A DNA stretch of 64,000 nucleotides, taken from positions 109,578-173,577 of the forward strand of contig JAVBYI010000022.1 of NCBI GenBank assembly GCA_030824115.1. Reading direction: 5' to 3'. A model generated the notes under the pieces. The model worked only from the letters and a program-made list of their open reading frames with translations, was not told the origin of the DNA and searched no databases. This document shows positions 1 to 63,793 of this stretch, in pieces. The stretch's first letter is position 1. Each line of letters begins with the position of its first letter. The position numbers and the translations under genes were made by a program. This DNA is from Rhodocyclaceae bacterium (GTDB taxonomy: Bacteria > Pseudomonadota > Gammaproteobacteria > Burkholderiales > Rhodocyclaceae).

Positions 1-438
1 CCAGGTATGTATGCTTTCGCCGACCAACAGGCCACCCTCGCCACGGGTCACCTGGAAAACAATTCGCCCGGCGCGCGGCCAGCGACTGGCCATCTCGGAG
101 ACCAGCACGGGAGCAGACGGTGGCGCGGGGGCCGGCTCAAAAGTCGGCGCTGGTGGGACGGCATCGGGTTGCGGCGCAAGTTCAGGTGCTGCACTAGGTG
201 CAGGATCGGACGGCACCGCAACCGGCGACGGGGTCACCGGTGATTTTTTTCTCGGGGATGGCCGGGGTGCGACAGGAACCGGGGCCATCGCAGGCGCTAG
301 CCGCGTTTCCAGCAGGACAGCCTCCGGTTCGTCATCCAGCCCCGGCAGCCCCCAACCCGGCGCGGTCAAGGCACCGAGATGGATCAGCACGGAAACCACC
401 AGCGCCAGCCATAATGACCGACGTGCCCCTTGCATCAT
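1..438 (-). CDS. DUF3108-type protein, N-terminal part (cut by window edge)
   Basis: The gene is cut by the left edge; 146 codons are open from ATG 438 to base 1. The N-terminus has basic residues followed by one hydrophobic segment (about residues 7-24). A long Pro/Ala-rich linker comes next, like a TonB-type periplasm-spanning anchor. The linker contains AVPPAPTF, encoded by a dispersed repeat copy. The start overlaps the purN stop (TGATG), so it is translationally coupled. Proteins of the DUF3108 family follow purN in many betaproteobacteria; the domain itself lies outside the window, so the family call is inference. Confidence 0.6.
   Translation of the reverse strand, partial: MMQGARRSLWLALVVSVLIHLGALTAPGWGLPGLDDEPEAVLLETRLAPAMAPVPVAPRPSPRKKSPVTPSPVAVPSDPAPSAAPELAPQPDAVPPAPTFEPAPAPPSAPVLVSEMASRWPRAGRIVFQVTRGEGGLLVGESIHTW
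139..163 (+). repeat. Dispersed 24-bp repeat, copy 1
   Basis: The 20-bp core lies at 143-162 with one mismatch to the consensus GTCGGCGCTGGCGGGACGGC. The copy is in the plus orientation inside the minus-strand DUF3108-type gene, where it is read as AVPPAPTF in the proline-rich linker. Confidence 0.85.
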
Positions 439-1085
439 CAGGCAGCAGGCACCCGCAGGGCGCCATCGGCCGGCGTGGCATCGCTATCCCAAACCACACG
501 ATGCTTCTCAAGCCGGCAATGGCCGTTGAGAATACCGCGCGCCGCCTGCGGGTAGACGATGTGTTCCTGTACCAGCACACGTGCCGCCAGCCGATCAGCA
601 TCGTCGTCGGGCAACACCGGTACGGCCGCCTGCACAATGATCGGGCCACAATCCAGCGCCGGGGTGACAAAGTGCACCGTGCAGCCATGAATGCGTACCC
701 CCGTCTTCAACACGGTCTCATGGGTATGCAGCCCGGGGAAGGCCGGCAGCAGCGAGGGATGAATATTCACGAGGCGCCCGTTGAAGCGCTGTACGAAAGC
801 CTCCGTCAAGACGCGCATGAAACCGGCCAGCAGCACCAACTCGGCGCCGCGCCGGTCGATCTCTTCGGCCAGCGCCACATCAAAGGCCTCGCGCGACGGG
901 AAAGCCTTATGGTCGATCACGGCAGTTGGCACGCCGCGCTCGGCGGCCCAGGCCAGTCCGGCGGCACCGGGACGATTGCTGATGACCCCGACACAGGTAC
1001 CGGGCAGCTTGGCATCGATCAGGGCCTGCATATTGCTGCCCCGGCCGGAAATCAGAATCACATATTTGTCCATGGAGTTTTTCAT
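438..1085 (-). CDS. purN: Phosphoribosylglycinamide formyltransferase PurN
   Basis: PurN transfers a formyl group from 10-formyltetrahydrofolate to glycinamide ribonucleotide in de novo purine synthesis, in the cytoplasm. The 215-residue length is normal. Visible signatures are VILISGRGSNMQALID at the N-terminus, the formate-binding stretch GFMRVLT, the catalytic NIHPSLLPAFPG and HGCTVHFVTPALDCGPII. ATG 1085 overlaps the upstream lipoprotein stop (TGATG), while ATG 1073 would give the more usual short N-terminus. It sits mid-operon on the minus strand, after dedA and the lipoprotein gene. Its partner purM is about 10 kb away. Confidence 0.97.
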   Translation of the reverse strand: MKNSMDKYVILISGRGSNMQALIDAKLPGTCVGVISNRPGAAGLAWAAERGVPTAVIDHKAFPSREAFDVALAEEIDRRGAELVLLAGFMRVLTEAFVQRFNGRLVNIHPSLLPAFPGLHTHETVLKTGVRIHGCTVHFVTPALDCGPIIVQAAVPVLPDDDADRLAARVLVQEHIVYPQAARGILNGHCRLEKHRVVWDSDATPADGALRVPAA

Positions 1086-1765
1086 CAGATGGGCAGGAAA
1101 ATGGCGGAGGTTATGCTTTGCACGACCTTGACAACCGTGCGCTGGGTCTTATCGGCGACGATCTGCGACAGCAGGTCAAGATTGCCGATCAGACGGCCGA
1201 ATTCGCGCTCGAAACTCAAATTGCGAACCGGCGTGATTTCGTTGGAAAACAGCATCGGCGCACCCACCGGAATATCGGCTTCGGGCAGTGTGCGCAGCGT
1301 ATTGGCCAGCTTCCAGGCAGCGATCTCGACATTGCGCGCTGCGTTGTAGAGCTTCTGCGCATCGAGATCGTCAAGAAAGAAAAATTCCAATTTGCCATCG
1401 AAGGCCAGGTGCAGCATCTGCGCCAGTCCGCCAATGAAGGCGGCGACCCGGTCATGCGCATAATCCTCGCGCAGGCTGGCCAGCACCAGCGTCGTACTGC
1501 GCCGACCATCTGCATCCAGCAGCAGAAAGCGCGTGGGATCGGCCAGCTGGGCCAGCGCGATTTCGAGGCTGGCATGCCCACCCTTCTTCCACTCGCGTGG
1601 ATTGCGGCGATACAGTTTCTCGGTCAGACGCTGCAGACTGGCGGCAATTTCTCGACGATGCAGGTCGGCAATCCGGTCGATATCGCTTTTGGCAAACTGG
1701 CTGGGACCAGACACGCAACCGGCGAGCAGTACAGGCAGGGCGAGCAGGCAGGCGCGGCGCTTCAT
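1085..1765 (-). CDS. Conserved lipoprotein of unknown function
   Basis: The 226-residue product starts with a lipoprotein signal peptide, KRRACLLALPVLLAGC, with the lipobox LAGC and Cys17 as the lipidated residue. The mature part is mostly helical and charged and carries no motif I recognise. ATG 1765 overlaps the dedA stop by four bases (ATGA) and its own stop overlaps the purN start by one, so it is a coupled middle gene of the operon. An upstream in-frame extension exists, but it would run through dedA and lacks a signal peptide. The function is unknown. Confidence 0.75.
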   Translation of the reverse strand: MKRRACLLALPVLLAGCVSGPSQFAKSDIDRIADLHRREIAASLQRLTEKLYRRNPREWKKGGHASLEIALAQLADPTRFLLLDADGRRSTTLVLASLREDYAHDRVAAFIGGLAQMLHLAFDGKLEFFFLDDLDAQKLYNAARNVEIAAWKLANTLRTLPEADIPVGAPMLFSNEITPVRNLSFEREFGRLIGNLDLLSQIVADKTQRTVVKVVQSITSAIFLPI

Positions 1766-2465: not shown

Positions 2466-2490
2466 AAAAGTCGGCGCTGGCGGGACGGCA
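2466..2490 (+). repeat. Dispersed 24-bp repeat, copy 2 (perfect core, intergenic)
   Basis: The core at 2470-2489 matches the consensus exactly. The copy lies in the plus orientation between the divergent dedA and baeS genes, about 14 bp before the tandem TTCTCC box. Confidence 0.9.
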
Positions 2491-8169: not shown

Positions 8170-9903
8170 ATGCGCGCCTTCATGCCAACCCGATCCCGCA
8201 TCCACCCTCTGCCCGATCTCCTGATCAGCCAGATCGCTGCCGGCGAGGTCGTTGAACGTCCGGCTTCCGTCCTCAAGGAACTGCTTGAAAACAGCCTCGA
8301 TGCCGGCGCGACGAAGATCGACGTGCAACTGGAGGAAGGCGGCGTCAGCCTGATCCGCATTGCCGACGATGGCAGCGGCATGCCGCCGGACGACCTACCG
8401 CTGGCGCTGGCCCGCCACGCCACCAGCAAAATCGCCAGCCTGAGCGATCTGGAAAGCGTGGCGAGCTACGGCTTTCGCGGCGAGGCGCTGGCCTCCATCG
8501 CCGCCGTGGCGCGCGTGGACATCACCAGCCGCACACAGGACAGTACCCACGCCTGGCGCATCGAGGCGCTGACTGGCGAGATCAAGCCCGCCGCCCTCGC
8601 TGCCGGCACCGTCATCAGCGTTGCCGACCTGTATTTCAATACGCCGGCACGGCGCAAGTTCCTCAAGACCACCGCCACCGAGTACGCCCATTGCGACGAT
8701 ATGCTGGTGCGCATGGCGCAGGCCCGCCCCGATGTGGCGTTCACTCTCACGCACAATGGACAGGTAAAGCGCCGTCTCGCCAGCGCCGACATTTCGCGCC
8801 GGACACGGGAATTGGTCGGCGAAGCATTCTTCCAGCATGTTCGCAACATCGATGTCGCCGCCGGCCCGCTCACACTGACCGGTTTCGCCGCCCTGCCCGC
8901 CTATGCGAAGTCTACGCGCGCCGAGCAGTTCTTCTACGTCAATGGCCGCTTCGTGCGCGACAAGCTACTGGTCCATGCGGCGCGTGAAGCCTATGCCGAC
9001 ATCCTGCATGGCGCCCACCACCCCGCCTACGTGCTGTTCCTGACACTCGACCCGGCAACGGTGGACGTCAATGTGCATCCGGCCAAGACCGAGGTGCGCT
9101 TCCGCGATGCGCGCGGCATTCACCAGTTTATTTTCCACGCCCTGCAGCGTGCCTTGGCGACACCGTTGACCACGGCAAGTCCTAGCCATGCCGTCCCACC
9201 AGCGCCGACATTTACGCAACGTCCCCCCCAGCAAACCAGCTTCGCCATGCGCGAGCCCGCCGTCGCGGCCTATCTCGACTTCGCCCAGCAAGCGATGTCG
9301 GCAGCACCCGTGCCAGAGACGGATGCCCCCCTCGGCCACGCCCTCGCGCAACTGCATGGCATCTACATCCTCGCCGAGAATGCGCAAGGGCTGGTACTGG
9401 TCGACATGCATGCGGCCCACGAACGCATCCTCTACGAACGGCTGAAAGCCAGTACCGATGCCGCGCCCGCCATCCAGCCCTTGCTTGTGCCGGTGCTGTT
9501 TTCCGCCACGGCCGGCGAGATGGCCTGCGCCGAAGCCCATCAGGAAACGCTGCAGGTACTCGGCTGCGACATCGCCCCGACAGGCCCTGCGCAACTTGCC
9601 GTGCGCGCCGTGCCGGCCCTGCTGGCCGGCGGCAACGTCGAACAACTGGCGCGCGGCCTGCTCGCCGAGTTGGCCGAACAGCCCGCCAGCCGCGTCTTGC
9701 AGGAGCGCCGCAACGAGATTCTCGCCACGCTCGCCTGCCACGGTGCCGTGCGCGCGAACCGGCAACTCACCTTGCCCGAAATGAATGCGCTGCTGCGCCA
9801 GATGGAAGCCACCGAGCGCGCCGACCAGTGCAACCACGGCCGCCCCACCTGGGTGCAACTTTCCATCGCCGATCTCGACAAGCTGTTCATGCGCGGGAAA
9901 TGA
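8170..9903 (+). CDS. mutL: DNA mismatch repair protein MutL
   Basis: MutL couples mismatch recognition by MutS to strand incision and repair. The 577 residues have an N-terminal GHKL ATPase with [15 protein letters not shown] and [10 protein letters not shown], followed by a transducer domain with [14 protein letters not shown] variable linker then leads to the C-terminal dimerisation domain ([14 protein letters not shown] at the end). The start is ATG 8170; ATG 8182 is possible. Two dispersed repeat copies lie inside: one read as RRLASADIS near residue 202-210, the other as AVPPAPTF in the linker. The stop overlaps miaA by four bases. Confidence 0.96.
8771..8794 (-). repeat. Dispersed 24-bp repeat, copy 3
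   Basis: The core at 8771-8790 has one mismatch and is in the minus orientation inside mutL. It is read in the frame giving RRLASADIS, the same frame as the copy in hda. Confidence 0.75.
9189..9213 (-). repeat. Dispersed 24-bp repeat, copy 4
   Basis: The core at 9190-9209 has one mismatch and is in the minus orientation. It is read as AVPPAPTF in the variable linker between the two MutL domains. Confidence 0.88.
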
Positions 9904-12739: not shown

Positions 12740-13438
12740 TTGACCCAACTGCTTCTCGATCTCCAGCCGGCACAGCCCCCCAGTCTGGACAACTTCATCG
12801 CCGGCACCAACCAGGAACTACTGTCCCGCTTGCGCGCGCTGGCCGAGCCCGGCTGCTGCGATGCCCTTTATCTGTGGGGAGCGGCGGGGAGCGGCAAGAC
12901 GCACCTGCTCGCCGCCGTCGCCAGCTTGGCGATGCGAAAGCGCCCGGTGATGTTTCTCGATCGCCGTCCGGCCAGCGCCGACTTTTTCGACCTGCCCGGT
13001 GGCCTGCTGGTGGTTGACGACATCGACCGTCTTGACGACGATGCGCAGATCGCCCTCTTTCGCCTCTACAACACGGCGCGCGTCATCGGGCTCGGCCTGC
13101 TACTGGCCGGCAACCGTCCGCCCCTGCAGCTTTCCCTGCGCGAAGACCTGCGCACACGTATCGGCCAGACCCTGATCTACGAGGTCAAAACCCTCAACGA
13201 CGACGAGAAGGCCGCTGCCCTGCAACGCCATGCACTGGAGCGCGGTCTCAAGATCGATGACAGCCTGCTGCGCTACCTGCTCGCCCACGGCCGGCGCGAC
13301 CTGCCCGCGCTGATGGCCGTGCTCGATCACCTTGACCGCACCACCCTGGAACGGCAGCGCCCGGCCACCCTGCCGCTGCTCAAGGAAGCCCTGCAACTTC
13401 AACGGATGCCTCAGGAAAATGAACCTCGCCCTGTTTGA
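12740..13438 (+). CDS. hda: DnaA regulatory inactivator Hda (DnaA-like AAA+ protein)
   Basis: Hda works with the loaded sliding clamp to stimulate hydrolysis of DnaA-bound ATP and prevent re-initiation. The 232-residue product starts from TTG 12740 with the clamp-binding motif QLLLDL right at the N-terminus. It then has Walker [11 protein letters not shown] and Walker [10 protein letters not shown] repeat copy between them is read as RRPASADFF. Betaproteobacterial Hda typically lies next to a HAD phosphatase and pcnB, as here. The last 20 bases overlap the HAD gene. Confidence 0.92.
12962..12987 (-). repeat. Dispersed 24-bp repeat, copy 5
   Basis: The core at 12963-12982 has one mismatch and is in the minus orientation inside hda. 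It is read as RRPASADFF, the frame also used by copy 3 in mutL. Confidence 0.75.
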
Positions 13439-14124: not shown

Positions 14125-15477
14125 ATGATCCGCAAGCTCCTGCGCCGCGTATTCAAACGCGGCGAACCTACCCCCCACGCAGTTGAAACCATCGGCCCCA
14201 GCCAGCACGGCATTCGTCCAGAGGCTGTCTCGTCGGCCGCACGCCGCACCTGCGAAGGCTTGCAACAAGCCGGCTACCGCGCCTATGTGGTCGGCGGTGC
14301 CGTGCGCGACCTGATCGCCGGGATCGAGCCCAAGGATTTCGACGTCGCCACCGACGCCACCCCCGAGCAGGTGCGTGCCCAGTTCCGCCGCTCACGCGTC
14401 ATCGGTCGCCGCTTCCAGATCGTGCACGTGATGTTCGGTGCCGAAACCATCGAGGTATCGACCTTCCGCGCCGCCCACGACGCCGACACGCTCAAGGATG
14501 AACATGGCCGCGTGCTGCGCGACAATGTCTGGGGCAACATGGAAGAGGACGCCGCACGACGCGACTTCACCGTCAATGCGCTGTACTACGATCCGGCCAC
14601 CGGCAAGGTCTTCGATTACCACCACGGCGTGCGCGACTTGCAAAGGAAAACCCTGCGCATGATCGGCGATCCGCGTGCACGCTATCGCGAAGACCCGGTG
14701 CGCATGCTGCGTGCCGTGCGCCTCGCGGCCAAGCTCGATCTGCGGCTCGATCCGCAGGTGCAGGCCCCGATTCGCGAAATGGCCGAACTGATCGAGAACG
14801 TGCCCGCCGCGCGTCTCTTCGACGAAATGCTCAAGCTGCTGTTCTCCGGCCACGCCGTCGAATGCGTCAAGCGTCTGCGCGAGGACGGGCTGCACCACGG
14901 TCTGTTGCCTCTGCTCGACGTCATCCTCGAACAGCCCCTGGGTGAAAAATTTGTCATGCTGGCGCTGGCCGATACTGATCGGCGCATCCGCGAGGGCAAG
15001 CGCACCTCGCCCGGTTTCCTGTTCGCCACGCTGCTGTGGCACGAAGTGCTGTCCAACTGGGAAACGCGCAAGAAAAACGGCCAACTGCCGGTGCCCGCGC
15101 TCCACGAAGCGATGGACGAGGTGCTTGATACGCAGGGCGAAAAACTCGCCATCACACGCCGCATCGCCGGCGACATCAAGGATGTCTGGCTGCTGCAGCC
15201 ACGCTTCGAGAAGCGCAGTGGACGCATGCCTTTCCGCCTGATTGAACAGCCGCGCTTCCGCGCCGCGTGGGATTTTCTGCGCTTGCGCGCCGAGAGCGGC
15301 GAGGCGCCGCAGGAACTGTCCGACTGGTGGGCTGCCTTCGAACAGGCCGATAACGCCGAGCGCGAAGCGATGCTCAAGCCCGACACGGGGCCGAAGAAGC
15401 GGCGGCGGCGCACCCGGGTCCGCAAACCCGGCGAGGACGCGACCAATGCCGTCCCGCCAGCGCCGACATTTGAGTAA
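14125..15477 (+). CDS. pcnB: Poly(A) polymerase I PcnB
   Basis: PcnB adds 3' poly(A) tails that mark RNAs for decay. The 450 residues have the class II nucleotidyltransferase signature YVVGGAVRDLIAG, catalytic DFDVATDA, the RRDFTVNALYY motif and a basic C-terminal tail (KKRRRRTRVRK). The last residues, AVPPAPTFE, are encoded by a dispersed repeat, so the native terminus has probably been replaced or extended. The start is ATG 14125. In related genomes folK follows directly. Here a convergent three-gene block begins three bases after the stop. Confidence 0.95.
   Translation: MIRKLLRRVFKRGEPTPHAVETIGPSQHGIRPEAVSSAARRTCEGLQQAGYRAYVVGGAVRDLIAGIEPKDFDVATDATPEQVRAQFRRSRVIGRRFQIVHVMFGAETIEVSTFRAAHDADTLKDEHGRVLRDNVWGNMEEDAARRDFTVNALYYDPATGKVFDYHHGVRDLQRKTLRMIGDPRARYREDPVRMLRAVRLAAKLDLRLDPQVQAPIREMAELIENVPAARLFDEMLKLLFSGHAVECVKRLREDGLHHGLLPLLDVILEQPLGEKFVMLALADTDRRIREGKRTSPGFLFATLLWHEVLSNWETRKKNGQLPVPALHEAMDEVLDTQGEKLAITRRIAGDIKDVWLLQPRFEKRSGRMPFRLIEQPRFRAAWDFLRLRAESGEAPQELSDWWAAFEQADNAEREAMLKPDTGPKKRRRRTRVRKPGEDATNAVPPAPTFE
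15447..15471 (-). repeat. Dispersed 24-bp repeat, copy 6 (perfect core)
   Basis: The perfect core at 15448-15467 forms the 3' end of pcnB, read as AVPPAPTF just before the stop codon. It sits 10 bases from the end of the convergent kinase gene, at the border of the block that separates pcnB from folK. Confidence 0.92.
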
Positions 15478-20707: not shown

Positions 20708-21223
20708 ATGCAGAACACCCATTCCCCTCCCAAAGCCTATGTCGCACTGGGCGCCAATCTCGGCGATCCCATCGCCACCGTAGAGGCAGCCATCGCCTCA
20801 CTCAAGGGCATGCCAGACACCCGCTTTATTGCGGCCTCCGCGCTGTACCGCACGGCGCCTGTCGGCCTGCACCACCAGCCGGACTTCATTAATGCCGTTG
20901 CCGTCCTGGAGGTCAATGACGCCGTCCTGCCAGCACCGACATTTCTGGGGTACCTGTTTGCCATCGAAGCCGCGTTCGGGCGCCAGCGCAGCGTGAAGAA
21001 TGCGCCGCGCACGCTCGACCTCGATCTGCTGCTGTTCGGTGAAGTGCAACTTGATCTGCCCGGCCCCCCCCACCTCGTACTGCCCCACCCGCGCATGACG
21101 GAACGCGCTTTCGTCCTTGCGCCACTGGCCGAAATCGCGCCGGATCTCGTCATTCCAGGCCACGGGCCGATCGCGCTCATGCTAGCGGCCGTTGCCGGGC
21201 AACAGATCGAAAGACTGCCGTGA
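20708..21223 (+). CDS. folK: 2-amino-4-hydroxy-6-hydroxymethyldihydropteridine pyrophosphokinase FolK
   Basis: FolK pyrophosphorylates hydroxymethyl-dihydropterin in folate synthesis. The 171-residue enzyme shows YVALGANLGDP, LYRTAPVG, the signature RTLDLDLLLFG and LPHPRMTERAFVLAPL. The loop before the FAIEAAFGR helix contains AVLPAPTF from a repeat copy. By comparison with E. coli FolK this segment is about three residues longer. In related genomes it follows pcnB; here the pair is split by 5.2 kb. The stop overlaps the next GTG start. Confidence 0.95.
   Translation: MQNTHSPPKAYVALGANLGDPIATVEAAIASLKGMPDTRFIAASALYRTAPVGLHHQPDFINAVAVLEVNDAVLPAPTFLGYLFAIEAAFGRQRSVKNAPRTLDLDLLLFGEVQLDLPGPPHLVLPHPRMTERAFVLAPLAEIAPDLVIPGHGPIALMLAAVAGQQIERLP
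20921..20944 (-). repeat. Dispersed 24-bp repeat, copy 7
   Basis: The core at 20921-20940 has two mismatches and is in the minus orientation. It is read as AVLPAPTF in a folK loop. It has the same orientation as copy 6, so the two copies bracket the kinase/YfiR/receptor block as direct repeats. Confidence 0.8.
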
Positions 21224-25885: not shown

Positions 25886-27463
25886 ATGAATTTCAGTCTG
25901 CATCACGACCATAGCCCCCGCCTGCCGCGCTTGGCGTTGGGGCTGCTCGTGGGCATCTATCTGCTGGCTGGTATGTTCGGTCATGATCCGTGGAAAGGCG
26001 AGGATGCCATCCACCTCGCCATCGCGCATGGTTTCTGGCAGGGCAATGACTGGCTAATCCCGCGCATTGCCGGCGAAATCTGGCCCCATACGGCTCCGCT
26101 CTACCACTGGGTCGCCGCATCGCTGGGTGGTCTGCTGACGCCCATGCTCGCCTTTCATGACGCAGCGCGCCTCACCACCACCTTATTCGGCATCCTGTTT
26201 CTGGTTGCGCTGACCGGCGCAGCACGCAGCTTTCATGGCGATACCGCCAGTCGCATCGCGCCCCTGCTGGCCATCGGCACCATCGGCCTGCTGGTGTCGC
26301 TGCATGAGGCCCAGCCGGCCATCGCCGGGCTGGCGTTTGCCGCACTGGCCTGGTGGGGTGCTGGCTTGCTCACGCAGGGCAATCGCAAGGGTGCCCCCCT
26401 GCTCGGCCTGGGACTCGGCTTGGCCTTTGCTGCGCATGGTCTGGTTGGCCTGCTAATGGCCATTGCCGTCCTGCCAGCGCCGATTTTCCAGCGTGATCTG
26501 AAGAGCTTGCTGATCGCCCTTGCCATCGCCCTGCCGGTAGCGCTTATCTGGCCGATCCTGCTGTGGCAAACCGCCCCGGAAACTCTCGCCATCTGGTGGC
26601 AGAATGAATGGGCCGAAGCCACTCTTGGACGGCATCTGCCTACACCAGGGCATCTCGAAATCATTGCCTGGGCGACCTGGCCGATCCTGCCCCTGTCGCT
26701 CTGGGGTGCCCGCATTCTGCCGCGTGACAGCGCCCGCCTGTGGCTACCGCTGGCCGGCATCTTCCTTGGGCTGGCCTGGTATCTGAGCGGTCCAGCGCGC
26801 ACCCTGAGCCTGTTCCCTGTCCTGATTCCCCTGATCCTGTTGGCCAGTGCCGGGGCCGAACGCCTGCGCCGCAGCACCACCAATGCCTTCGACTGGTTCG
26901 GCGCCATTACTTTCAGTCTGGTCGCCCTGCTGATCTGGCTCGGCGCCAGCGCCATCGTCCTCGGCTGGCCGGCGCCCATTGCCCGCAACTTCGCCAAGCT
27001 TGCCCCCGGGTATGACGGCCATATCGGGTTGCTGGCATTCGCCTTCGCCATCACGGCAACGCTCGGCTGGCTGGCAGCCTGGCGGCTACCGCGCGCGCCC
27101 TGGCGCTCCAGCCTACGTTGGGCCTCAGGAGCAACGATGATGTGGGTACTGGTCACTGCATTGTGGATGGGCTGGATTGACCACTACAAAAACCACCGGC
27201 CCGTGGCGCTCTCCCTGCGCAACGCCCTACCGGATGGCATCGATTGCATCGAACGTAACGGCCTCGGCGTCAGTCAGCGCGCCATGCTCGATTATTTTGC
27301 CAATATCCGCACCGTGGCGCCCTCACCCGCGCGCAACTGCTCGTGGCGGCTTGCCATAGACGACCTCGACCGTGAAACGCCCGCGGGATGGATGCAGGTA
27401 TGGCAAGGCGCCCGACCCAGCGATCGCAAAGAACGCTGGTATCTCGAGCGGCGGGAAGACTAG
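25886..27463 (+). CDS. ArnT-like polytopic glycosyltransferase (GT83/PMT type)
   Basis: This 525-residue inner-membrane protein has about 11-12 hydrophobic segments and a soluble C-terminal tail. The first periplasmic loop has acidic DPWKGEDAIHLAIA, the position of the catalytic acidic motif in ArnT and PMT-type enzymes. Such proteins use polyprenyl-phosphate sugars to modify lipid A or other envelope molecules; the acceptor here is unknown. ATG 25886 is preferred over 25859, which overlaps the terminator. A repeat copy is read as AVLPAPIF within a membrane-adjacent region. It is convergent with orn, with a four-base gap. Confidence 0.75.
   Translation: MNFSLHHDHSPRLPRLALGLLVGIYLLAGMFGHDPWKGEDAIHLAIAHGFWQGNDWLIPRIAGEIWPHTAPLYHWVAASLGGLLTPMLAFHDAARLTTTLFGILFLVALTGAARSFHGDTASRIAPLLAIGTIGLLVSLHEAQPAIAGLAFAALAWWGAGLLTQGNRKGAPLLGLGLGLAFAAHGLVGLLMAIAVLPAPIFQRDLKSLLIALAIALPVALIWPILLWQTAPETLAIWWQNEWAEATLGRHLPTPGHLEIIAWATWPILPLSLWGARILPRDSARLWLPLAGIFLGLAWYLSGPARTLSLFPVLIPLILLASAGAERLRRSTTNAFDWFGAITFSLVALLIWLGASAIVLGWPAPIARNFAKLAPGYDGHIGLLAFAFAITATLGWLAAWRLPRAPWRSSLRWASGATMMWVLVTALWMGWIDHYKNHRPVALSLRNALPDGIDCIERNGLGVSQRAMLDYFANIRTVAPSPARNCSWRLAIDDLDRETPAGWMQVWQGARPSDRKERWYLERRED
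26464..26488 (-). repeat. Dispersed 24-bp repeat, copy 8
   Basis: The core at 26465-26484 has two mismatches and is in the minus orientation. It is read as AVLPAPIF in the glycosyltransferase, the same peptide as in nnrS (copy 19). Confidence 0.8.
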
Positions 27464-28089: not shown

Positions 28090-29331
28090 ATGGCCGATCT
28101 GTTTGCCACCCTGTTTTTCGTCGCTCTCGCGTTCTCCACCGCGCTGCGTGTGTGGCTGGCGCTGCGCCAGCGCCGCCATGTACTGGCGCATCGCACCGCA
28201 GTGCCGGCCGAATTTGCCGATCACATCGCGCTGACCGATCACCAGAAGGCGGCGGACTACACTACCGCCAAGATCAGACTGGGGCTTGCTGAGCTGGCGA
28301 TGGATATCGTCCTGCTGCTGGCGCTGACCTTCGGCGGCATCCTGGCAGCGCTCGATAATTTCTGGCGTGCTCAACTGGATGCCAGCCTCTTTCATGGCCT
28401 CACCCTGTTCGCCAGCCTCGGCCTCATCAGCTTCGTGGTCGGCCTGCCCTTCTCGCTCTACCGTACCTTCATCCTTGAAGCGCGCTTCGGCTTCAACAAG
28501 ATGACACCCGGCCTCTACCTCGGCGACCTCGCCAAACAACTGGTGCTGACGGTACTGATCGGCGGCCCCTTGTTGCTCGCCGTGCTATGGCTGATGGGCG
28601 CGATGGGTGAACGCTGGTGGTTCTACGTCTGGGCCGTCTGGCTCGGTTTCAACCTCCTCGTACTGCTGCTCTACCCGACCTTCATCGCGCCGCTGTTCAA
28701 CAAGTTCAACCCGCTGGCCGAAGGCGAGATGAAGACACGCATCGAAAGCCTGCTGGCGCGTTGCGGCTTTGCCAGTTCGGGCCTGTTCGTGATGGACGGT
28801 TCCAAGCGTTCGGCGCACGGTAACGCCTATTTCACCGGCTTCGGCAAGGCCAAGCGCATCGTCTTTTTCGATACGCTGCTGGAGAAACTGGCACCGGGCG
28901 AAGTGGAGGCGGTGCTGGCGCACGAGCTGGGCCACTACAAACACCATCACATCATCAAGCGTATCGTCATGATGTCCATCATGTCACTCACCCTGCTGTG
29001 GCTGCTTGGTCAGTTAATCGACCAGCCCTGGTTCTATGCTGCCCTAAATGTCGGCGCTGGCGGGACGGCAATGGCGCTGATCCTGTTCTCGCTGGTGCTG
29101 CCTGTCTTCAGCTTCCCGCTCTCGCCGCTGTTTTCCTGGCTGTCGCGTCGCCACGAATTCGAGGCCGATGCCTATGCGGCCAAGCAGGCCAGTAGCGACG
29201 ACCTGATCACCGCGCTGGTCAAGCTCTATCGCGACAATGCCGCAACGCTCACGCCCGACCCGCTGCATTCGCTGTTCTACGACTCGCATCCGCCAGCCAG
29301 CGTACGCATCGCCCATTTGCGCGCATGCTGA
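28090..29331 (+). CDS. Ste24/CAAX-type M48 membrane endopeptidase
   Basis: This 413-residue inner-membrane zinc protease has several TM segments. The catalytic HELGHYKHHH lies near residue 280 and the third zinc ligand in RRHEFEADAYA near residue 355. SKRSAHGNAYFTGFGKAKRIVFFDTLLE is typical of the Ste24-like family. Bacterial members are thought to act in membrane protein quality control. A repeat copy is read as VGAGGTA in the loop before a late TM segment. The stop overlaps the rsgA start by seven bases. Confidence 0.9.
   Translation: MADLFATLFFVALAFSTALRVWLALRQRRHVLAHRTAVPAEFADHIALTDHQKAADYTTAKIRLGLAELAMDIVLLLALTFGGILAALDNFWRAQLDASLFHGLTLFASLGLISFVVGLPFSLYRTFILEARFGFNKMTPGLYLGDLAKQLVLTVLIGGPLLLAVLWLMGAMGERWWFYVWAVWLGFNLLVLLLYPTFIAPLFNKFNPLAEGEMKTRIESLLARCGFASSGLFVMDGSKRSAHGNAYFTGFGKAKRIVFFDTLLEKLAPGEVEAVLAHELGHYKHHHIIKRIVMMSIMSLTLLWLLGQLIDQPWFYAALNVGAGGTAMALILFSLVLPVFSFPLSPLFSWLSRRHEFEADAYAAKQASSDDLITALVKLYRDNAATLTPDPLHSLFYDSHPPASVRIAHLRAC
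29046..29070 (+). repeat. Dispersed 24-bp repeat, copy 9 (perfect core)
   Basis: The perfect core at 29050-29069 is in the plus orientation. It is read as NVGAGGTA in the M48 protease, between two membrane segments. Confidence 0.92.
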
Positions 29332-40727: not shown

Positions 40728-42137
40728 ATGATCCGCTGGCGCAATCTGCTGCCAGGCATCACCCTCGGGGTATTCTCGCTGCTGGTCACGGCGCAAACCG
40801 CGCATGATGAGATCGGCTGGCGGGGTCAGGAAAATGTCGGCGCTGGCAAGACGGCCCCTGATCCCGCAGATGTCCCTGGCGCATCCGGGATGGGCGCTCC
40901 ACGCGTCGGCGTTGATCGGCCCAAGCCCACCTATCCGCTCTATCAGCGCGACAAGCGCATTCACGGCTTCAAGCCCTTTCAGGAACTCGTCGACGCCGCG
41001 CCGGAAGGCAGCGTACTGATCCCGCCGCCCGGCCAGTACGCCGGCCCGGTGGTCCTGAAAAAACAACTGACGATTGATGGCAAGGGACAGGTCAGCATCG
41101 ACGCCGGCGACAAGGGCACGGTGTTTTCGCTCGAAGCCGACGATGTCGTGATCCGTGGCCTGCACCTCAGTGGTTCGGGTGACTCGCACGACAGTGATGA
41201 CAGTTGCCTCGACGTACGCGGACACCGCGCCCTGATCGAAAACAACCGCATCGACAACTGCCTGTTCGGCATTGACCTGAAGCAGTCCAGCAAGAGCATC
41301 GTGCGCAACAACAGCGTGCGCTCCAAGCCGCTCGATCTTGGCGTGCGCGGCGATGGCCTGCGCCTCTGGTACAGCAACGACAATCTGATCGAAGGCAATA
41401 CCGTCAGCGATTCGCGCGACATGGTGGCCTGGTATTCGCATCGCAACACCTTCCGCAATAACGTCGGCATGCGCAGCCGCTACTCGATTCACTTCATGTT
41501 CGCCAACCAAAACATCGTTGAAGGCAACAAGTTCTACGATAACGCGGTCGGCATCTACTTCATGTACACCGAAGGCGGCGGCGCGCGCAACAACCTGATT
41601 TCGCATGCCACCGGCGCGGCCGGCATGGCGCTCGGCTTCAAGGAATCCTCCGATCACTTCATCGAAGACAACGAGATCATCTACTGCGCCGTCGGCATCG
41701 GCTCGGACTTGTCGCCCTTCCAGCCCGGCACAACCATCCGCTTCAAGAACAACCGCATCGCCTACAACGGCATTGCCGTCCAGCTCACCAGCGAACTGGG
41801 CGGCAACCACTTCAACGACAACCTCTTTGAAGGCAACCTTACCGACATCTTCCAGGCCGGCCGCGATCAGGGCGACAAGAACAAGTGGACGGGCAACTAC
41901 TTCGACAGCTATCAGGGTTTCGACAAGAACGGCGACGGCATTGGCGACACGCCACACGAGCACTATGCCTATGCCGATCAGATCTGGATGGAAATGCCGG
42001 TCGCGCGTTTCTTCAAGACCTCGCCGGTGCTTGAACTGCTCGACTTCCTGGAACGCCTCGCGCCCTTCTCCACCCCGGAGCTGCAGGCACGCGACCCGCA
42101 GCCGCGCTACGCCAAACCCGTAAGGAATGCAGGATGA
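40728..42137 (+). CDS. nosD: NosD, periplasmic beta-helix maturation factor for NosZ
   Basis: NosD is a periplasmic protein needed, with the NosFY transporter, to assemble the CuZ centre. The 469-residue product has an N-terminal signal sequence and right-handed beta-helix repeats (IENNRIDNCLFGID, IEGNTVSDSRDM, IVEGNKFYDNAVGIYF). The C-terminal signature is NGDGIGDTPHEHYAYADQIWME. A repeat copy is read as NVGAGKTA in the segment after the signal peptide. The stop overlaps nosG. It is a paralogue of the protein at 57454. Confidence 0.95.
   Translation: MIRWRNLLPGITLGVFSLLVTAQTAHDEIGWRGQENVGAGKTAPDPADVPGASGMGAPRVGVDRPKPTYPLYQRDKRIHGFKPFQELVDAAPEGSVLIPPPGQYAGPVVLKKQLTIDGKGQVSIDAGDKGTVFSLEADDVVIRGLHLSGSGDSHDSDDSCLDVRGHRALIENNRIDNCLFGIDLKQSSKSIVRNNSVRSKPLDLGVRGDGLRLWYSNDNLIEGNTVSDSRDMVAWYSHRNTFRNNVGMRSRYSIHFMFANQNIVEGNKFYDNAVGIYFMYTEGGGARNNLISHATGAAGMALGFKESSDHFIEDNEIIYCAVGIGSDLSPFQPGTTIRFKNNRIAYNGIAVQLTSELGGNHFNDNLFEGNLTDIFQAGRDQGDKNKWTGNYFDSYQGFDKNGDGIGDTPHEHYAYADQIWMEMPVARFFKTSPVLELLDFLERLAPFSTPELQARDPQPRYAKPVRNAG
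40831..40856 (+). repeat. Dispersed 24-bp repeat, copy 12
   Basis: The core at 40836-40855 has two mismatches and is in the plus orientation. It is read as NVGAGKTA near the N-terminus of NosD. Confidence 0.82.
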
Positions 42138-43003
42138 GCGAAGAAGAAAAAGTCGGCGCTGACGAGACGGCAAGTGTTGGCAGCAAGCCGCCCCTTTCCA
42201 AAGAACGCAAGCAGCAAGCTCGCCGCCGCTTCCTGCGCACCGCCTTGCTTACTGGCGGTGTGCTCGGCGCCGCCCTCTCGGGCTATCTGCCGATTGCCTA
42301 CGCACAGAAAAAACGTCTGCGCCCACCCGGCGCACTCGACGAGCAGGATTTCTTGTCCAGTTGCATCAAGTGCGGCCAGTGCGTGCAGGTCTGTCCGGTC
42401 TTCGCCATCAAGCTGGCCGACCTCACCGACGGCTTTGGCGTCGGTGTCCCCTACATCGATGCACGCGAACAGGCCTGCGATTTTTCCTGCGATGCCGTGC
42501 AGTGCATCCTCGCCTGTCCGACCGGCTCGCTCACCTACAAAAAACCCGACTTCCTCAAGGTACGTCCCGGCGCCAAAATGGCCGGCAAACCCGTATTGCT
42601 GGCCAAGGAAAACGATGCCGAGCCAACGCTCAACCTCGCCGAACGCATCGGCGTTGCCCGCCTGACACGCCCCGAATCCTGCCTGGCCATCCAGGGCAAA
42701 GGCTTCAAGGGCCAGGCGCGCGGCCCGGCTTTCGAGGGAGAGTTGCGCTACATGAAGGTCGACCGCTGGAAGCCGATCAAGGTGGCCGACCACCCGTACG
42801 ACACCGAGCTGTGCGACCTGTGTGTGCAGGCCTGCCCGATCAAGGGCGCCATCAGCATCGAAACCGTGTTTGCCCCGGACGGCACGCAAAGAAAATCGCC
42901 AGTCGTGCATGAGCCCTGCGTCGGCTGCGGCGTCTGCGAAATGATCTGCCCGACCGAGCCGGCCAGCATCGAGATCATTCCCGGTGAAGGATGGAGAGCA
43001 TGA
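42134..43003 (+). CDS. nosG: NosG, MauM/NapG-type polyferredoxin
   Basis: This 289-residue iron-sulfur protein passes electrons from NosH towards the periplasm. Its N-terminus has a twin-arginine-like motif (RRRFLRTALLTGG). Several 4Fe-4S patterns follow: CIKCGQCVQVCPVFAIK, CDFSCDAVQCILACP, CDLCVQACP and CVGCGVCEMICP. NosGH resembles NapGH and is thought to oxidise menaquinol. A repeat copy near the N-terminus is read as KVGADETA. It is coupled to nosD and nosH by ATGA overlaps. Confidence 0.95.
   Translation: MSEEEKVGADETASVGSKPPLSKERKQQARRRFLRTALLTGGVLGAALSGYLPIAYAQKKRLRPPGALDEQDFLSSCIKCGQCVQVCPVFAIKLADLTDGFGVGVPYIDAREQACDFSCDAVQCILACPTGSLTYKKPDFLKVRPGAKMAGKPVLLAKENDAEPTLNLAERIGVARLTRPESCLAIQGKGFKGQARGPAFEGELRYMKVDRWKPIKVADHPYDTELCDLCVQACPIKGAISIETVFAPDGTQRKSPVVHEPCVGCGVCEMICPTEPASIEIIPGEGWRA
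42147..42172 (+). repeat. Dispersed 24-bp repeat, copy 13
   Basis: The core at 42152-42171 has two mismatches and is in the plus orientation. It is read as KVGADETA in the leader region of NosG, before the twin-arginine motif. Confidence 0.78.
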
Positions 43004-43996: not shown

Positions 43997-44021
43997 AAAA
44001 GTCGGCGCTGGCAGGACGGCA
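43997..44021 (+). repeat. Dispersed 24-bp repeat, copy 14, at left border of the RM island
   Basis: The core at 44001-44020 has one mismatch and is in the plus orientation, 13 bases after the nosH stop. With copy 15 (minus orientation) it brackets the restriction-modification island as an inverted pair. The rest of 43984-44144 shows no gene. Confidence 0.88.
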
Positions 44022-47406: not shown

Positions 47407-47408
47407 GC

Positions 47409-51381: not shown

Positions 51382-51406
51382 TGCCGTCCCGCCAGCGCCG
51401 ACTTTT
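51382..51406 (-). repeat. Dispersed 24-bp repeat, copy 15 (perfect core), at right border of the RM island
   Basis: The perfect core at 51383-51402 is in the minus orientation, 80 bases before nosF. It forms an inverted pair with copy 14 around the hsd genes. Confidence 0.92.
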
Positions 51407-54125: not shown

Positions 54126-54854
54126 ATGGCGGCGCTCGACCAGAGCTTCGGTCGGGAAGACGTCGCCAATGCCGAGCGGCGCTCGCGCATCCGTCAGGTC
54201 TTTGCGGCCGTCGCCCCGCGCTACGACCTGATGAACGACCTGATGAGCTTTGGCATTCATCGCCTGTGGAAGCGCACCCTCGCGCGTCGCTGTGCGGATG
54301 TATCCGGCGTCACCGTCGATCTGGCTGGCGGTACCGGCGATGTCGCCCGCCTGCTGCTGCGTCCCGACCGGCAGGTCAGCGTCTGCGATCCCAGCCCGGA
54401 AATGATGCAGGCCGGAAAAGTCGGCGCTGGCAGGACGGCAAGTATCGAGTGGATTACCGGCGAAGCCGAAGCCCTGCCCTTCGCCGACCGCAGCGTCGAC
54501 TTGCTAACCATCTCCTTCGGCATCCGCAACGTCACCCAGCTCGCCGCCGCGCTGGCCGAGATTTATCGCGTCCTCAAGCCCGGTGGCCGCTTCGTCTGTC
54601 TCGAATTCTCGCGCCCGCAGTGGTGGCTCGCGCCTTTCTACGACTTCTATTCCTGGCTGGTCATTCCGCGCCTCGGCGCCGCCGTGGCGCGCCAGCCGAT
54701 CGCCTATCAGTATCTGGTCGAATCGATCCGCCGCTTTCCCGATCAGCGGGCATTCGCCGACCTGATCAGTGCCGCCGGCTTTACCAAGGTGCAGTGGGAA
54801 AATCTCTCCTTCGGCATCGCCTGCCTGCACCGTGGCGAGAAAGCCGCCGCATGA
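54126..54854 (+). CDS. ubiE: Ubiquinone/menaquinone C-methyltransferase UbiE (MenG)
   Basis: UbiE methylates the quinone ring in ubiquinone and menaquinone synthesis using SAM. The 242-residue enzyme shows VAPRYDLMNDLMSFGIHRLWKR, motif I VDLAGGTGDVARLL, AEALPFADRSVD and the C-terminal FGIACLHRG. A repeat copy is read as KVGAGRTA between motif I and the acidic loop. It starts four bases after the thiol protein gene. With menA next to it, the pair is devoted to menaquinone here. Confidence 0.95.
   Translation: MAALDQSFGREDVANAERRSRIRQVFAAVAPRYDLMNDLMSFGIHRLWKRTLARRCADVSGVTVDLAGGTGDVARLLLRPDRQVSVCDPSPEMMQAGKVGAGRTASIEWITGEAEALPFADRSVDLLTISFGIRNVTQLAAALAEIYRVLKPGGRFVCLEFSRPQWWLAPFYDFYSWLVIPRLGAAVARQPIAYQYLVESIRRFPDQRAFADLISAAGFTKVQWENLSFGIACLHRGEKAAA
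54416..54440 (+). repeat. Dispersed 24-bp repeat, copy 16
   Basis: The core at 54420-54439 has one mismatch and is in the plus orientation. It is read as KVGAGRTA in ubiE. Confidence 0.88.
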
Positions 54855-55772: not shown

Positions 55773-56590
55773 AACGCCTTGCTGCCGCCGTCTTCTGTGC
55801 GCCGACATTTGCCCTTGCGGCCGATTTCAGCGATCTGGCCCTCGCCTATCGCTACGGCAGCGGATTCACCGAACCGAATCGTCCCAACGAAATCGTCAAG
55901 CACATCCCGACCCTGAGTTACCTCAACAGCAACCAGACCGGCATTCATTTCGCCAGTCTCGAAGGGCGCTTTTCCGATCGCGAAGATCCCGCCAGAAATT
56001 CGAATGACGGCGCAGACGAATATCTCTTCAACTATCGCTGGCAACTGCCCGCCGGCCGCGTGCTCGACAAGCCGCTCGCCTTCGGCCCCGTCCGCGATCT
56101 GGGGCTGCTTGCTGGCATCGATCTGACCCACAAGAACACCCTGTTTGCGCCCCGCAAACGCGCCTGGATGATCGGCCCGGTAGTCAAGCTCAACGTGCCG
56201 GGTTACCTCGACATCGGGCTGCTGTATTACAAGGAGCGCAACCACAAGGGCATCCCGGGCACGCCGCGTCCCGAGACCGAATTTGCCGGTACCTGGCTGC
56301 TGAATGTCACCTGGGGCATCCCGTTCCAGGCCGGCCCGCTGCCCGCCGTTTTCCAGGGTCTGTTCAATCGCCTCGGCGAAAAGGGTAACGATTTCAACTA
56401 CCGGCCGACGGCCAGCGAAACCCTGTTGCGCACCGCCGTGCTGTTCGACATCGGCCAGGGCTTTGGCTGGGGTACCAAACGCTTCATGGCCGGCATGGGT
56501 TACGAGTGGTGGAAGAACAAGTACGGTACGCCGGCCGGCGTCGGCACGCACACCAAGACGCCCACGCTCAACGTCGAAATGCACTTCTAA
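55769..56590 (+). CDS. Tsx/OmpK-like outer-membrane channel protein
   Basis: This 273-residue outer-membrane beta-barrel has a short signal peptide and the terminal pattern NVEMHF with aromatic F. AYRYGSGFTEPNRPNEIVKHIPT and WKNKYGTPAG fit the nucleoside-specific channel (Tsx/OmpK) family; the substrate is unproven. A degenerate repeat copy forms part of the signal peptide (AAVFCAPTFA). It is coupled to menA by ATGA and followed six bases later by the symporter gene. Confidence 0.75.
   Translation: MKRLAAAVFCAPTFALAADFSDLALAYRYGSGFTEPNRPNEIVKHIPTLSYLNSNQTGIHFASLEGRFSDREDPARNSNDGADEYLFNYRWQLPAGRVLDKPLAFGPVRDLGLLAGIDLTHKNTLFAPRKRAWMIGPVVKLNVPGYLDIGLLYYKERNHKGIPGTPRPETEFAGTWLLNVTWGIPFQAGPLPAVFQGLFNRLGEKGNDFNYRPTASETLLRTAVLFDIGQGFGWGTKRFMAGMGYEWWKNKYGTPAGVGTHTKTPTLNVEMHF
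55787..55810 (-). repeat. Dispersed 24-bp repeat, copy 17 (degenerate)
   Basis: The 20-bp core at 55787-55806 keeps both conserved ends (GCCGTC and GCGCCGAC, then ATTT) but differs at six central positions. The encoded peptide AVFCAPTF still resembles AVPPAPTF. It is probably a decayed copy. Confidence 0.5.
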
Positions 56591-61446: not shown

Positions 61447-61511
61447 TGCCGTCTCGCCAGCACGGAGGCCGTCAAGGCGGAAGCGGCCCGAAGAGGCTGC
61501 GCCGACTTTTA
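61447..61511 (-). repeat. Dispersed 24-bp repeat, copy 18, split by 39 bp
   Basis: The left part (GCCGTCTCGCCAGC, 61448-61461) and right part (GCCGACTTTT, 61501-61510) together make a near-complete repeat in the minus orientation. They are separated by 39 bases (61462-61500). It is intergenic between the HTH-PAS gene and the gene at 61523. It looks like a copy interrupted by a small insertion. Confidence 0.6.
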
Positions 61512-61902: not shown

Positions 61903-62610
61903 CTAAATATCGTATTCGCGCAGTTGTCGGGCGTTGTTGATGGTGATCTGCTTGCCCTGCACGCTGATGAGTTTGGCTTCGGCCAGGTCATGGAAGATGC
62001 GCGACAGGGTTTCCGGGGTGAGGTTGAGGCGCGAGGCGATGATCTGTTTGGTGGTCGGTAGTGTCACCTGAATCTCGCCCTCGCCCAGTTCACCCGCATC
62101 CCCCGGGCATTGCTGGAGCAGGTAGCCCACGACGCGCTGCGCGCTGGAGCGCAGGGAGTAGGTTTCCACGTCCTGCAGCAGGCTGTGCAGGCGCAGCGAC
62201 AGGCCGGCCAGCATCATGTGGGCAAAGTTCGGTTCGGTTCTGATCAGTTCGAAGATGACGTCGCGCGGCACATGCAGCACCAGCGTGTCGCTGATCGCTT
62301 CGGCAAACACGGGATAGGGCTTGTCCATGAACATCACCGCCTCGCCGAAACTTTGCTTCGGGCCGATGATATCCACCACTTTCTCGTTGCCGGCCGACGA
62401 AGGAAAAGCCAGCTTCAGTTGGCCGAAGATCACCACGTAGAAGCCGCGCGGCAGATCGCCTTTCTGGAACAGCATTTCGCCACGTGCCAGCCGCTTCTCG
62501 CGCGCCTGGGCGGCCATCAGGTTGACGTGCTCCATCGACATTTGCTGAAACAACGGCAAGCGGGCCAACAACTCGGGGATGTCGACACGAAAATCGTTCG
62601 TATGCGTCAA
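61903..62610 (-). CDS. dnr: DNR-like Crp/Fnr-family regulator
   Basis: This 235-residue regulator has a sensor domain (EMLFQKGDLPRGFYVVIFGQLK, GPKQSFGEAVMF), a long dimer helix and a winged HTH with TKQIIASRLNLTPETLSRIFHD. The E-T-L-S-R residues match FNR/DNR reading of TTGAT. N-terminal iron-sulfur cysteines are missing, which points to a DNR-type, haem-based NO sensor. It starts at TTG 62610, with GGAG seven bases upstream. It lies downstream of nnrS, as in NO-responsive units, and is the best candidate to bind the anaeroboxes in this window. Confidence 0.85.
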   Translation of the reverse strand: MTHTNDFRVDIPELLARLPLFQQMSMEHVNLMAAQAREKRLARGEMLFQKGDLPRGFYVVIFGQLKLAFPSSAGNEKVVDIIGPKQSFGEAVMFMDKPYPVFAEAISDTLVLHVPRDVIFELIRTEPNFAHMMLAGLSLRLHSLLQDVETYSLRSSAQRVVGYLLQQCPGDAGELGEGEIQVTLPTTKQIIASRLNLTPETLSRIFHDLAEAKLISVQGKQITINNARQLREYDI

Positions 62611-62638
62611 TTCAATTCTCCAACCTGATGTGGGGTGA

Positions 62639-63793
62639 CTAATGTTCCCGTCCGTCGATACGCGGTGCCAGCAACATGGGGGCGAAACGCCACAGCAGTG
62701 TACCGAATCCGAGCAGCCATGCGGTGGCCGATAGATGCAAGGCCATGGTATAGCCCGCCGGGTACAACTGCGGCAGGACGACTCGGGCGAAGAGGCCGCC
62801 GATCAGCAGCCACAGGGCGAACTTGTCAGTTGCGCTGAAAACGATCTCCCGCCCGGTCATGCCCTGTGAAATTCGGATGATCATCGCCGGCAGCACCAGA
62901 CCCATGGCCCCGACGGTGAACACATGCACGCTGACGGTGCCAACCCAGGGCATCTCGGTGAGGCGGCCGAGCGCGGACAGGATCAGTTGCAGGACGATCA
63001 TCAGGTAGGCGAGATACATGATGCCGATGTCGAGGCGCGTCAGGGCACGATGCGGATGCCAGCCGAAGAATCGTTCGAGCAATAGCACCGCCAGCGCCAG
63101 CTCGCCCACCACGGCGACGGGCAGCGGCAGCCAGCCGGCAAACACCAGTAGCAGCGCCAGCCATTTGATCGGCATGTCGAGATTGGGATCGCGGCGAATC
63201 TCCAGCTTGAAGGCAAAGCGCATGTATTGCTGCTGGGTGCGTTCCAGCATGATGAGAATGATGACGCGGAACAGCGCCAGCGCCATGCCCCAGCCGAGCT
63301 GGAAATAATCGCCCTGCACAATCAGCAGCTTGGCGACGGGAAACAGCGGCAGGAGCACCCAGAAAAAATAGTTGTCGCTGCCATCCATGTGATGGCGCTG
63401 TTGCAGGAAGATTTGCAGCAGCATCACAATGACGGCCACTTGGAACAACAGGGTGGCCGTCCAGAACAGCACCGGTGGCCAGCCCGCCCCGAAACTTATC
63501 GCCACGCGATCGAGCAGCCACGCGGCCACCAGAAAGACCAGGGCCTTGCCGTGCCAGCCGCGCACGCCGATCCAGTTCTTGCTCGCTGTCAGCAAAAAGC
63601 CCCCAAGCCCGGCCCAGCCGAAACCGTAGAACATTTCGTGGACATGCCATTGCAAAGGTGAGACCGGAAATATCGGCGCTGGCAGGACGGCACCTGTGTA
63701 GAGCAGCACCCAGACCAGTGGCAAGCCAAGCCCGGTCAGGCAGGTGAGGATGAAGAAAGGACGGAAAGGGACCAGCCAGAGCGGATGTTTCAT
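62639..63793 (-). CDS. nnrS: NnrS family haem-copper membrane protein
   Basis: This 384-residue inner-membrane protein has about twelve TM segments. The NnrS signature is PFRPFF at the N-terminus, followed by WHVHEMFYGFGWA and the conserved HVFTVGAMGLV. NnrS proteins are linked to nitric oxide tolerance and denitrification. A repeat copy is read as AVLPAPIF in the first periplasmic loop. Two anaeroboxes precede it. It is co-directional with the DNR-like gene. Confidence 0.94.
   Translation of the reverse strand: MKHPLWLVPFRPFFILTCLTGLGLPLVWVLLYTGAVLPAPIFPVSPLQWHVHEMFYGFGWAGLGGFLLTASKNWIGVRGWHGKALVFLVAAWLLDRVAISFGAGWPPVLFWTATLLFQVAVIVMLLQIFLQQRHHMDGSDNYFFWVLLPLFPVAKLLIVQGDYFQLGWGMALALFRVIILIMLERTQQQYMRFAFKLEIRRDPNLDMPIKWLALLLVFAGWLPLPVAVVGELALAVLLLERFFGWHPHRALTRLDIGIMYLAYLMIVLQLILSALGRLTEMPWVGTVSVHVFTVGAMGLVLPAMIIRISQGMTGREIVFSATDKFALWLLIGGLFARVVLPQLYPAGYTMALHLSATAWLLGFGTLLWRFAPMLLAPRIDGREH
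63668..63692 (+). repeat. Dispersed 24-bp repeat, copy 19
   Basis: The core at 63672-63691 has two mismatches and is in the plus orientation on the minus-strand nnrS gene. It is read as AVLPAPIF between the first membrane segment and the WHVHEM motif. Confidence 0.8.

Follow-up and report, generated by a model that had tools for sequence, protein, structure and literature searches.

Examination of a 64,000-nucleotide stretch of a Rhodocyclaceae genome (assembly GCA_030824115.1, contig JAVBYI010000022.1, positions 109,578 to 173,577; hereafter the window, meaning the whole stretch analysed) revealed a short motif dispersed on both strands, within genes as well as between them, which is presented here as a candidate DNA-uptake sequence. 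An earlier reading made from the letters alone (the sequence-only reading) had described a 24-bp repeat at 19 places. The repeat is real, and a column table sets its unit at 25 bp, AAA[A/T]GTCGGCGCTGGC[G/A][G/A]GACGGC[A/G]. The signal begins with three A's and an A/T ahead of the core and ends one base behind it, and the edges of the motif are sharp. The possibility that the 25-mer is a fragment of a larger repeat was dropped, since there is hardly any information in the columns beyond the 25 bp.

A search with the full 25-mer, IUPAC positions included, found 17 copies in the window and none in 100 shuffles, while the 20-bp core at up to 3 mismatches found 16 copies against 0.06 expected in shuffles. 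The core thus recovers 16 of the 19 places listed earlier and the 25-mer 17, the addition being 30806. The place listed as a separate core at 61448 is the right half of a whole copy on the minus strand (61447..61510, outside called genes), which reads AAAAGTCGGCG, a 39-bp insert of the class B described below, and CTGGCGAGACGGCA. The one at 55787 is only a half-like match (AAATGTCGGCG...GACGGC), lying on the minus strand at 55786..55810 with the sequence AAATGTCGGCGCACAGAAGACGGCG. The five cores called perfect (2470, 15448, 29050, 31205 and 51383) are so by the core search, and the count of nine copies on the plus strand and ten on the minus strand is right when 30806, 61448 and 55787 are counted too. 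Differences had been placed at central positions, as holds for most copies; those at 20921, 26465 and 63672 also differ near the 5' end.

Many of the window copies lie in genes of recognizable function. The mutL gene carries two on the minus strand, one in the antisense frame with the peptide RRLASAD (8770..8794) and a second with the peptide AVPPAPT (9189..9213) in the linker that joins the DNA_mis_repair domain to MutL_C. Other copies are located in an hda-like gene (12962..12986, minus strand), at the C-terminal end of a pcnB-like poly(A) polymerase gene (15447..15471, minus strand, perfect core, AVPPAPTFE followed by the stop), in a folK-like (HPPK) gene (20920..20944, minus strand), in the gene of an M48 CAAX protease (29046..29070, plus strand, perfect core, sense frame VGAGGTA), near the N-terminus of a nosD-like gene (40832..40856, plus strand), at the N-terminus of a 4Fe-4S ferredoxin-like gene (42148..42172, plus strand, MSEEEKVGADETA), in a ubiE-like gene (54416..54440, plus strand) and in an nnrS-like gene (63668..63692, plus strand, antisense AVLPAPI). 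The nosD-like copy is absent from the orthologous place in the sister genome G011. Open frames without a Pfam match carry further copies, one at 26464..26488 (minus strand) and, in a single frame, a diverged copy with 3 mismatches (30802..30826, plus strand, sense VGAGKAA) and a perfect one (31204..31228, minus strand, antisense AVPPAPT).

Additional copies lie outside called genes at 139..163 (plus strand, 1 mismatch), at 2466..2490 (plus strand, perfect, intergenic upstream of a histidine kinase gene), at 43997..44021 (plus strand) and at 51382..51406 (minus strand, perfect). The syntenic G011 copy of 43997, with the same left flank, has a 39-bp class B insert. Next to the copy at 51382 is a type I restriction-modification block (HsdR, HsdM; 44485-51198), within which the 25-mer search lists no copy. 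Searches with Rfam and ARAGORN returned nothing in the window.

Abundance, placement and lineage spread

The genome of the window (G000; 2,999,174 bases in 24 contigs) holds 611 copies at up to 2 mismatches (312 on the forward and 299 on the reverse strand), and the reversed-pattern control gave 0. A whole-genome count had been proposed by the sequence-only reading, with a density near chance or a motif confined to the window as the outcomes that would speak against a genome-wide system; neither was found in the 3.0 Mb, and the motif is genome-wide. Detailed analyses covered C7 and C1 of G000 (400 kb each) plus the window, 864 kb in which mismatch classes 0-3 contain 207 copies, the reversed core giving 1. 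With 4 mismatches the figures are 20 against 6, and with 5 they fall to background (59 against 66). A product of chance or composition, built from GC-rich codon words such as KVGAGGTA, would agree with the mild repeated peptide of the sense frame, and it is left with next to no probability by these controls, which are near zero in the sampled relatives as well (0-3), and by the spread of the motif over both strands, several frames and intergenic DNA.

Placement relative to genes was determined for 204 copies (IUPAC core, up to 2 mismatches) in the 864 kb, with genes called by script. In this material 146 copies lie within called genes, 56 are intergenic and 2 cross a gene edge, where coding sequence amounts to 86-95%. 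The genic copies are distributed over the six frames as 51, 43, 29, 19, 3 and 1. The favoured frames encode VGAGxTA, AVxPAPT, RRxASAD and KSALAGR, so that the four main frames give mild, tolerable peptides.

Copies seldom lie close together, pairs less than 500 bp apart numbering 6 on C7 against 14.1 expected from random placement and 0 on C1 against 7.1; two pairs this close do occur in the window (8770/9189 and 30802/31204). Spacing on C7 is slightly more even than random (coefficient of variation, CV, 0.80; random 0.83-1.18). Three long gaps on C1, of 42, 24 and 45 kb, have a guanine-plus-cytosine (GC) content of 0.569, 0.519 and 0.502 against 0.591, and a fourth gap longer than 15 kb (16 kb, on C7) has ordinary GC. 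Because the gaps had been chosen for the absence of the motif, copies were also counted in 20-kb bins: their number increases with GC (Spearman 0.42, p 0.0075, 40 bins), and the seven bins with GC of at most 0.582 contain 7 copies altogether. With low GC as a proxy for recent acquisition, the motif is depleted from such DNA. A scan of ten proteins encoded in the C1 gaps showed ordinary enzymes as well as a Mu-type transposase, an SbcC-like protein, an RND pump and radical-SAM enzymes. The gap at C1 73350-115284, which is without the motif, encodes the SbcC-like ATPase and the Mu-type transposase and is possibly a defence or mobile island.

The same observations bear on two other functions for the motif. 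A cytoplasmic DNA-binding protein might use it for chromosome organisation, segregation or repair, in the manner of FtsK-orienting polar sequences (KOPS), matS or Chi; the genome-wide distribution, the conservation, the few close pairs and a weak strand bias in two contigs agree with such a role. The scarcity of copies in low-GC stretches, where an organising motif would also be needed, the dialects of different species and the absence of strand bias in G000 overall (p 0.63), a balance only partly telling given that contig directions are arbitrary, make this role unlikely in our view. Alternatively, the motif could mark DNA as self, a defence or nuclease system recognizing it and leaving DNA that bears it intact. 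The few low-GC copies, the lack of listed copies in the window's type I restriction block and the lineage-wide occurrence are in line with this; no defence gene was linked to the motif, none having been searched for across the genus, and we regard such self-marking as quite improbable.

The motif is characteristic of one lineage. With the same pattern, 17 of 18 congeners hold 149-658 copies and one (G005) has none. Among the six genomes sampled from other genera of the family, G019 holds 480 copies and the remaining five 0-2, and the range is 0-5 in 16 genomes from further families of the order. Among 300 genomes drawn from the order and searched with a pattern one base shorter and one mismatch allowed, counts of at least 94 occurred only in G000, G001, G017 and G270, all of one family; 50 genomes had any match, and the maximum outside that family was 5. 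Beyond the genus, two other genera of the family are motif-rich. Public stretches with the exact core are, among the 80 matches listed, mostly titled Rhodocyclaceae, Sulfuritalea or Sulfurisoma. Three genomes of other families (G058, G106 and G035) have 4-5 copies, clustered in G058 (C3 26-31 kb, C14 8-10 kb), and these copies look as if they were acquired or misbinned DNA of the present lineage.

The consensus is shifted between lineages. In G016 it reads AAACTCGGCGCTGGCGGGGCGGCG (13 copies in 80 kb), and in G001 and G017 it is looser around positions 13-15 (16 and 19 copies in 80 kb each); these differences from G000 are lineage dialects observed in small samples. A word search in 63.5 kb of the motif-free congener G005 found no 12-mer more than 4 times. 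The corresponding search in G019, disturbed by runs of N, gave 6 core matches at up to 4 mismatches.

Upkeep of motif copies and short inserts within them

Comparison with G011, the sole sister genome close enough, rested on 57 blastn blocks of at least 82% identity (264.5 kb of columns). Of 66 copies in G000, 55 are shared, 4 have diverged at equal length, 6 are gapped and 1 lies in an indel of about 46 bp; the 60 copies in G011 divide into 53 shared, 1 of equal length and 6 gapped. The gapped cases comprise inserts inside the motif, linkers with the motif in opposite directions (two), gap placement around retained motifs and true absences. No clean 25-bp insertion was found by eye in the alignments of these 66 + 60 copies, and in this one sister pair the 25-mer shows no dispersal as an inserted element. 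In the two protein linkers just mentioned (G000 C1, about 52.1 kb and 188.1 kb), G011 carries the motif in the same linker in the opposite direction, which suggests independent gain or local inversion.

The copies are better conserved than their surroundings. At 56 ungapped orthologous sites the 18 fixed positions differ by a mean of 1.02 against 2.30 in the flanks under the same mask, and 50 of the 56 sites lie below their own flank mean, in a measure that is not conditioned on retention of the motif in G011. The 10 bp beside the motif diverge more (0.20-0.22) than the wider flanks (0.12-0.15; 49 shared sites), so copies sit in permissive stretches. In mutL, the site at 8771 retains the motif at up to 3 mismatches in 9 of 17 sister genomes (11 of 17 are ungapped and two others have 27-base gaps), and the site at 9190 does so in 8 of 15, in a linker of varying length.

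The short inserts inside the motif are the new part of the finding and are nearly all confined to it. Class A inserts are mostly 27 nt long (TGACCGAAGGGAATCCCCTTTTCGGGA and variants), with 24 nt in some species and 26 nt in 3 of 12 copies; class B inserts are 39 nt long, with one of 42. Both occupy a fixed point between GTCGGCG and CTGGC (GTCGGCG^CTGGC). Class C inserts, of 21 nt, occupy another fixed point, between GGRGA and CGGC (GGRGA^CGGC). Insert lengths are mostly multiples of three (24, 27, 39, 42). Class A inserts occur at their point in either direction (4 of 13), and one copy in G009 (L369) carries a class A and a class C insert at their separate points. On C7 of G000, insert-bearing copies lie at 89732-89783, 121039-121102 and 217900-217951. 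Word searches in the G000 and G011 stretches placed 13 of 16 class A matches inside the motif (the other three being 2-mismatch; control 1) and 14 of 15 class B matches (control 0), while class C words gave 13 matches, of which the 5 exact ones are all in the motif and the 8 one-mismatch ones outside (control 3). A class B-like word outside any clear motif lies at G011:C44:185418. The left motif arm is present in 29 of 30 class A loci sampled across the genus (28 recognized by script and one by eye), and one of these, L383, lacks the right arm.

Orthologous sites in G000 and G011 show the inserts coming and going. A site at about 125.7 kb of C1 differs between the two genomes in having a class A insert or none; two sites on C7, together with the window copy at 43997, are free of insert in G000 and carry class B in G011; the copy at C7 121039 has class B in G000 and class A in G011; and both genomes have class B at about 242.3 kb of C1. 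In one case on C7, the two genomes share the private letters to both sides (AAAT and TTGGCAAG), and only the inner piece was therefore gained or lost. Across the 19 genomes of the genus, class A occurs in 12 (peaks 89, 78 and 36) and class B in 5 (peak 30), counts that suggest late spread in bursts. Classes A and C have visible inverted repeats. In composite folding, 46 of 200 shuffles were as good for class A, 130 for class C and 17 for class B (a weak signal), and the putative hairpins of the inserts thus rest on the visible inverted repeats.

A Y1 transposase was found in 5 of the 19 genomes of the genus (G002, G007, G009, G010 and G012). G007 and G009, the richest in class A inserts, have it, and G004, with 36 inserts, has none. 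Neither Y1 nor a transposase of the tyrosine type associated with repetitive extragenic palindromic (REP) sequences (RAYT) was found in G000 and G011. An origin from REP/RAYT or IS200/IS605 elements was for this reason set aside, less firmly for the inserts of G007 and G009. A full-size element at the insert site was likewise looked for and rejected: halves of the motif standing alone proved to border small inserts in all 6 cases of a right half and in 7 of the 11 of a left half, the other 4 being diverged or chance matches.

These results bear on the principal alternative of the sequence-only reading, a miniature mobile element like the Rickettsia palindromic elements (RPE). In this view the 25-mer itself would be such an element, comparable to miniature inverted-repeat transposable elements (MITE), REP sequences or RPE and spread by a transposase. 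Uniform sequence and sharp edges would suit such an element, as would the clear mobility of class A and B inserts within the motif and the presence of Y1 in five of the 19 genomes, two of them the richest in class A. Against it, the sister comparison gave no clean presence or absence of 25 bp, its differences being one indel of about 46 bp and 5 length-neutral changes; in addition, the 25-mer has no fold better than shuffles, it is conserved above its flanks, and G000 and G011 lack a detected Y1/RAYT. We therefore consider a mobile 25-mer unlikely; what stands of the idea is a changed form of it, in which separate short inserts come and go within the motif.

REP sequences and bacterial interspersed mosaic elements (BIME) are short dispersed repeats with a palindromic hairpin and a RAYT (Y1) transposase; the motif differs from them in its lack of a fold, its largely genic placement and the absence of a detected Y1 from G000 and G011. 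RPE and MITE are palindromic or terminal-repeat units with clean insertion polymorphism, and membership in either was rejected, the motif showing neither a fold nor, in the one sister pair, a clean insertion. The Neisseria dRS3 repeat, a dispersed element of about 20 bp with hundreds of copies that is said to serve as an insertion target, is palindromic and mostly intergenic, and the motif is neither.

A candidate DNA-uptake sequence

The features of the motif fit an uptake sequence best, and we hold with moderate confidence that the repeat is a genus-wide 25-bp tag, likely a DNA-uptake sequence, with a predicted surface receptor. The resemblance to uptake sequences noted by the sequence-only reading is in part supported, by good indirect evidence from density, balanced use of both strands, the placement of many copies in housekeeping genes, scarcity in low-GC DNA, conservation, dialects and lineage spread. 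Passages on the DNA uptake sequences (DUS) of Neisseriaceae and the uptake signal sequences (USS) of Pasteurellaceae describe hundreds to thousands of conserved motifs in permissive parts of core genes, with lineage dialects (PMC3630211, PMC12616744, PMC2397512). For DUS in particular, such passages give a conservation of 97% vs about 85% in flanks and the location in permissive parts of core genes (PMC2397512), as well as dialects by lineage (PMC3630211). USS are said to evolve through point mutations rather than as elements that insert (PMC7811141, PMC1939737), whereas for DUS recombination is argued instead (PMC2397512).

The motif shares with DUS, whose receptor is ComP and whose hosts are likewise betaproteobacterial, its many copies on both strands, often in genes, its conservation above the flanks and its dialects; unlike DUS, it has a different sequence and short inserts at fixed positions, and its receptor is only predicted. 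The DUS GCCGTCTGAA has 0 matches in the window, a search that covered this dialect, from which the consensus differs. USS resemble the motif in being longer and multi-part and belong to another bacterial group; their core AAGTGCGGT has 0 matches in the window, the search having covered this core and not the Apl-type one.

Competence genes, which the sequence-only reading had suggested looking for, are encoded in G000: ComEC, a pilin of the ComP_DUS family and DprA. ComEC was found in 38 of 41 genomes and the pilin in 37, G000 included in both. Since the two proteins do not separate motif-rich from motif-free relatives, recognition by the pilin is a prediction, and the ComP_DUS pilin, present with and without the motif, was dropped as a discriminating clue to the receptor.

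In the mechanism that we propose, the tag on free DNA would be bound by a predicted receptor at the cell surface, which may be a type IV minor pilin, and cells would thereby take up DNA of their own lineage. Recombination of tagged DNA would then restore or spread the tag, through molecular drive or selection for kin DNA. The inserts may be copied between motif copies by template switching or conversion over short homology, and recognition would have to tolerate a split motif. Copying between motif copies via the two arms is suggested by the confinement of inserts to the motif, together with the lack of a detected Y1 in G000 and G011.

Several observations weigh against a DNA-uptake sequence. 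Both ComEC and the ComP-family pilin are present in motif-free relatives, G005 among them; conversely, ComEC was not found in G018 and the pilin not in G012 and G015, motif-rich genomes that are less complete. At 25 bp the motif is about twice as long as DUS, which reach about 13 nt, and its information of about 38 bits by column sum, an upper figure since copies were selected by likeness, exceeds the need of a tag at such density. Inserts inside the motif are described neither for DUS nor for USS in the passages on both. Within G000, C7 and C1 together have 109 copies on the plus strand against 79 on the minus strand (p 0.034); spacing on C1 is uneven (CV 1.40), as a result of the long motif-free gaps; and an insert-bearing copy (C1 242262-242325) lies within the 24-kb low-GC gap.

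What is new here is a candidate uptake-sequence system with short inserts at two fixed points. Open-licence papers yielded no report of the 25-bp motif, wider topics being judged by title and start of abstract, and nothing on uptake sequences in Rhodocyclaceae or Alphaproteobacteria or on natural transformation in Sulfuritalea. Strong sequence-specific DNA uptake has been described for species of two bacterial families, and the processes proposed may have their greatest importance on mucosal surfaces, where host DNA is a competitor for uptake (PMC7811141). A bolder proposal, which we put forward tentatively and consider possible though not probable, is that free-living betaproteobacteria have independently evolved a third uptake-sequence system, beside those of Neisseriaceae and Pasteurellaceae. 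Its tag would be long (25 bp) and continuous, its receptor site would have two parts and tolerate cassettes, and the tag copies would dock cassettes of 21-39 nt that hop, swap and invert via transformation without a transposase of their own. The Y1 transposases of five congeners, including G007 and G009, make this slightly less likely, Y1 being the one enzyme type searched for.

If the same kind of tag does exist in environmental betaproteobacteria, self-tagging evolves elsewhere too, and these organisms would offer a natural test of drive versus selection. Moreover, the receptor should be findable by comparison of gene content and co-variation, given a tag-free congener (G005), the tag in two other genera and the dialects. 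The short inserts for their part are an unexplained kind of very small genome change, for which there are clear sites before and after the event. In G007, two class B-like copies start 39 bp apart (C142, 34156/34195), like a small tandem repeat, and this pair is a possible source of the class B insert.

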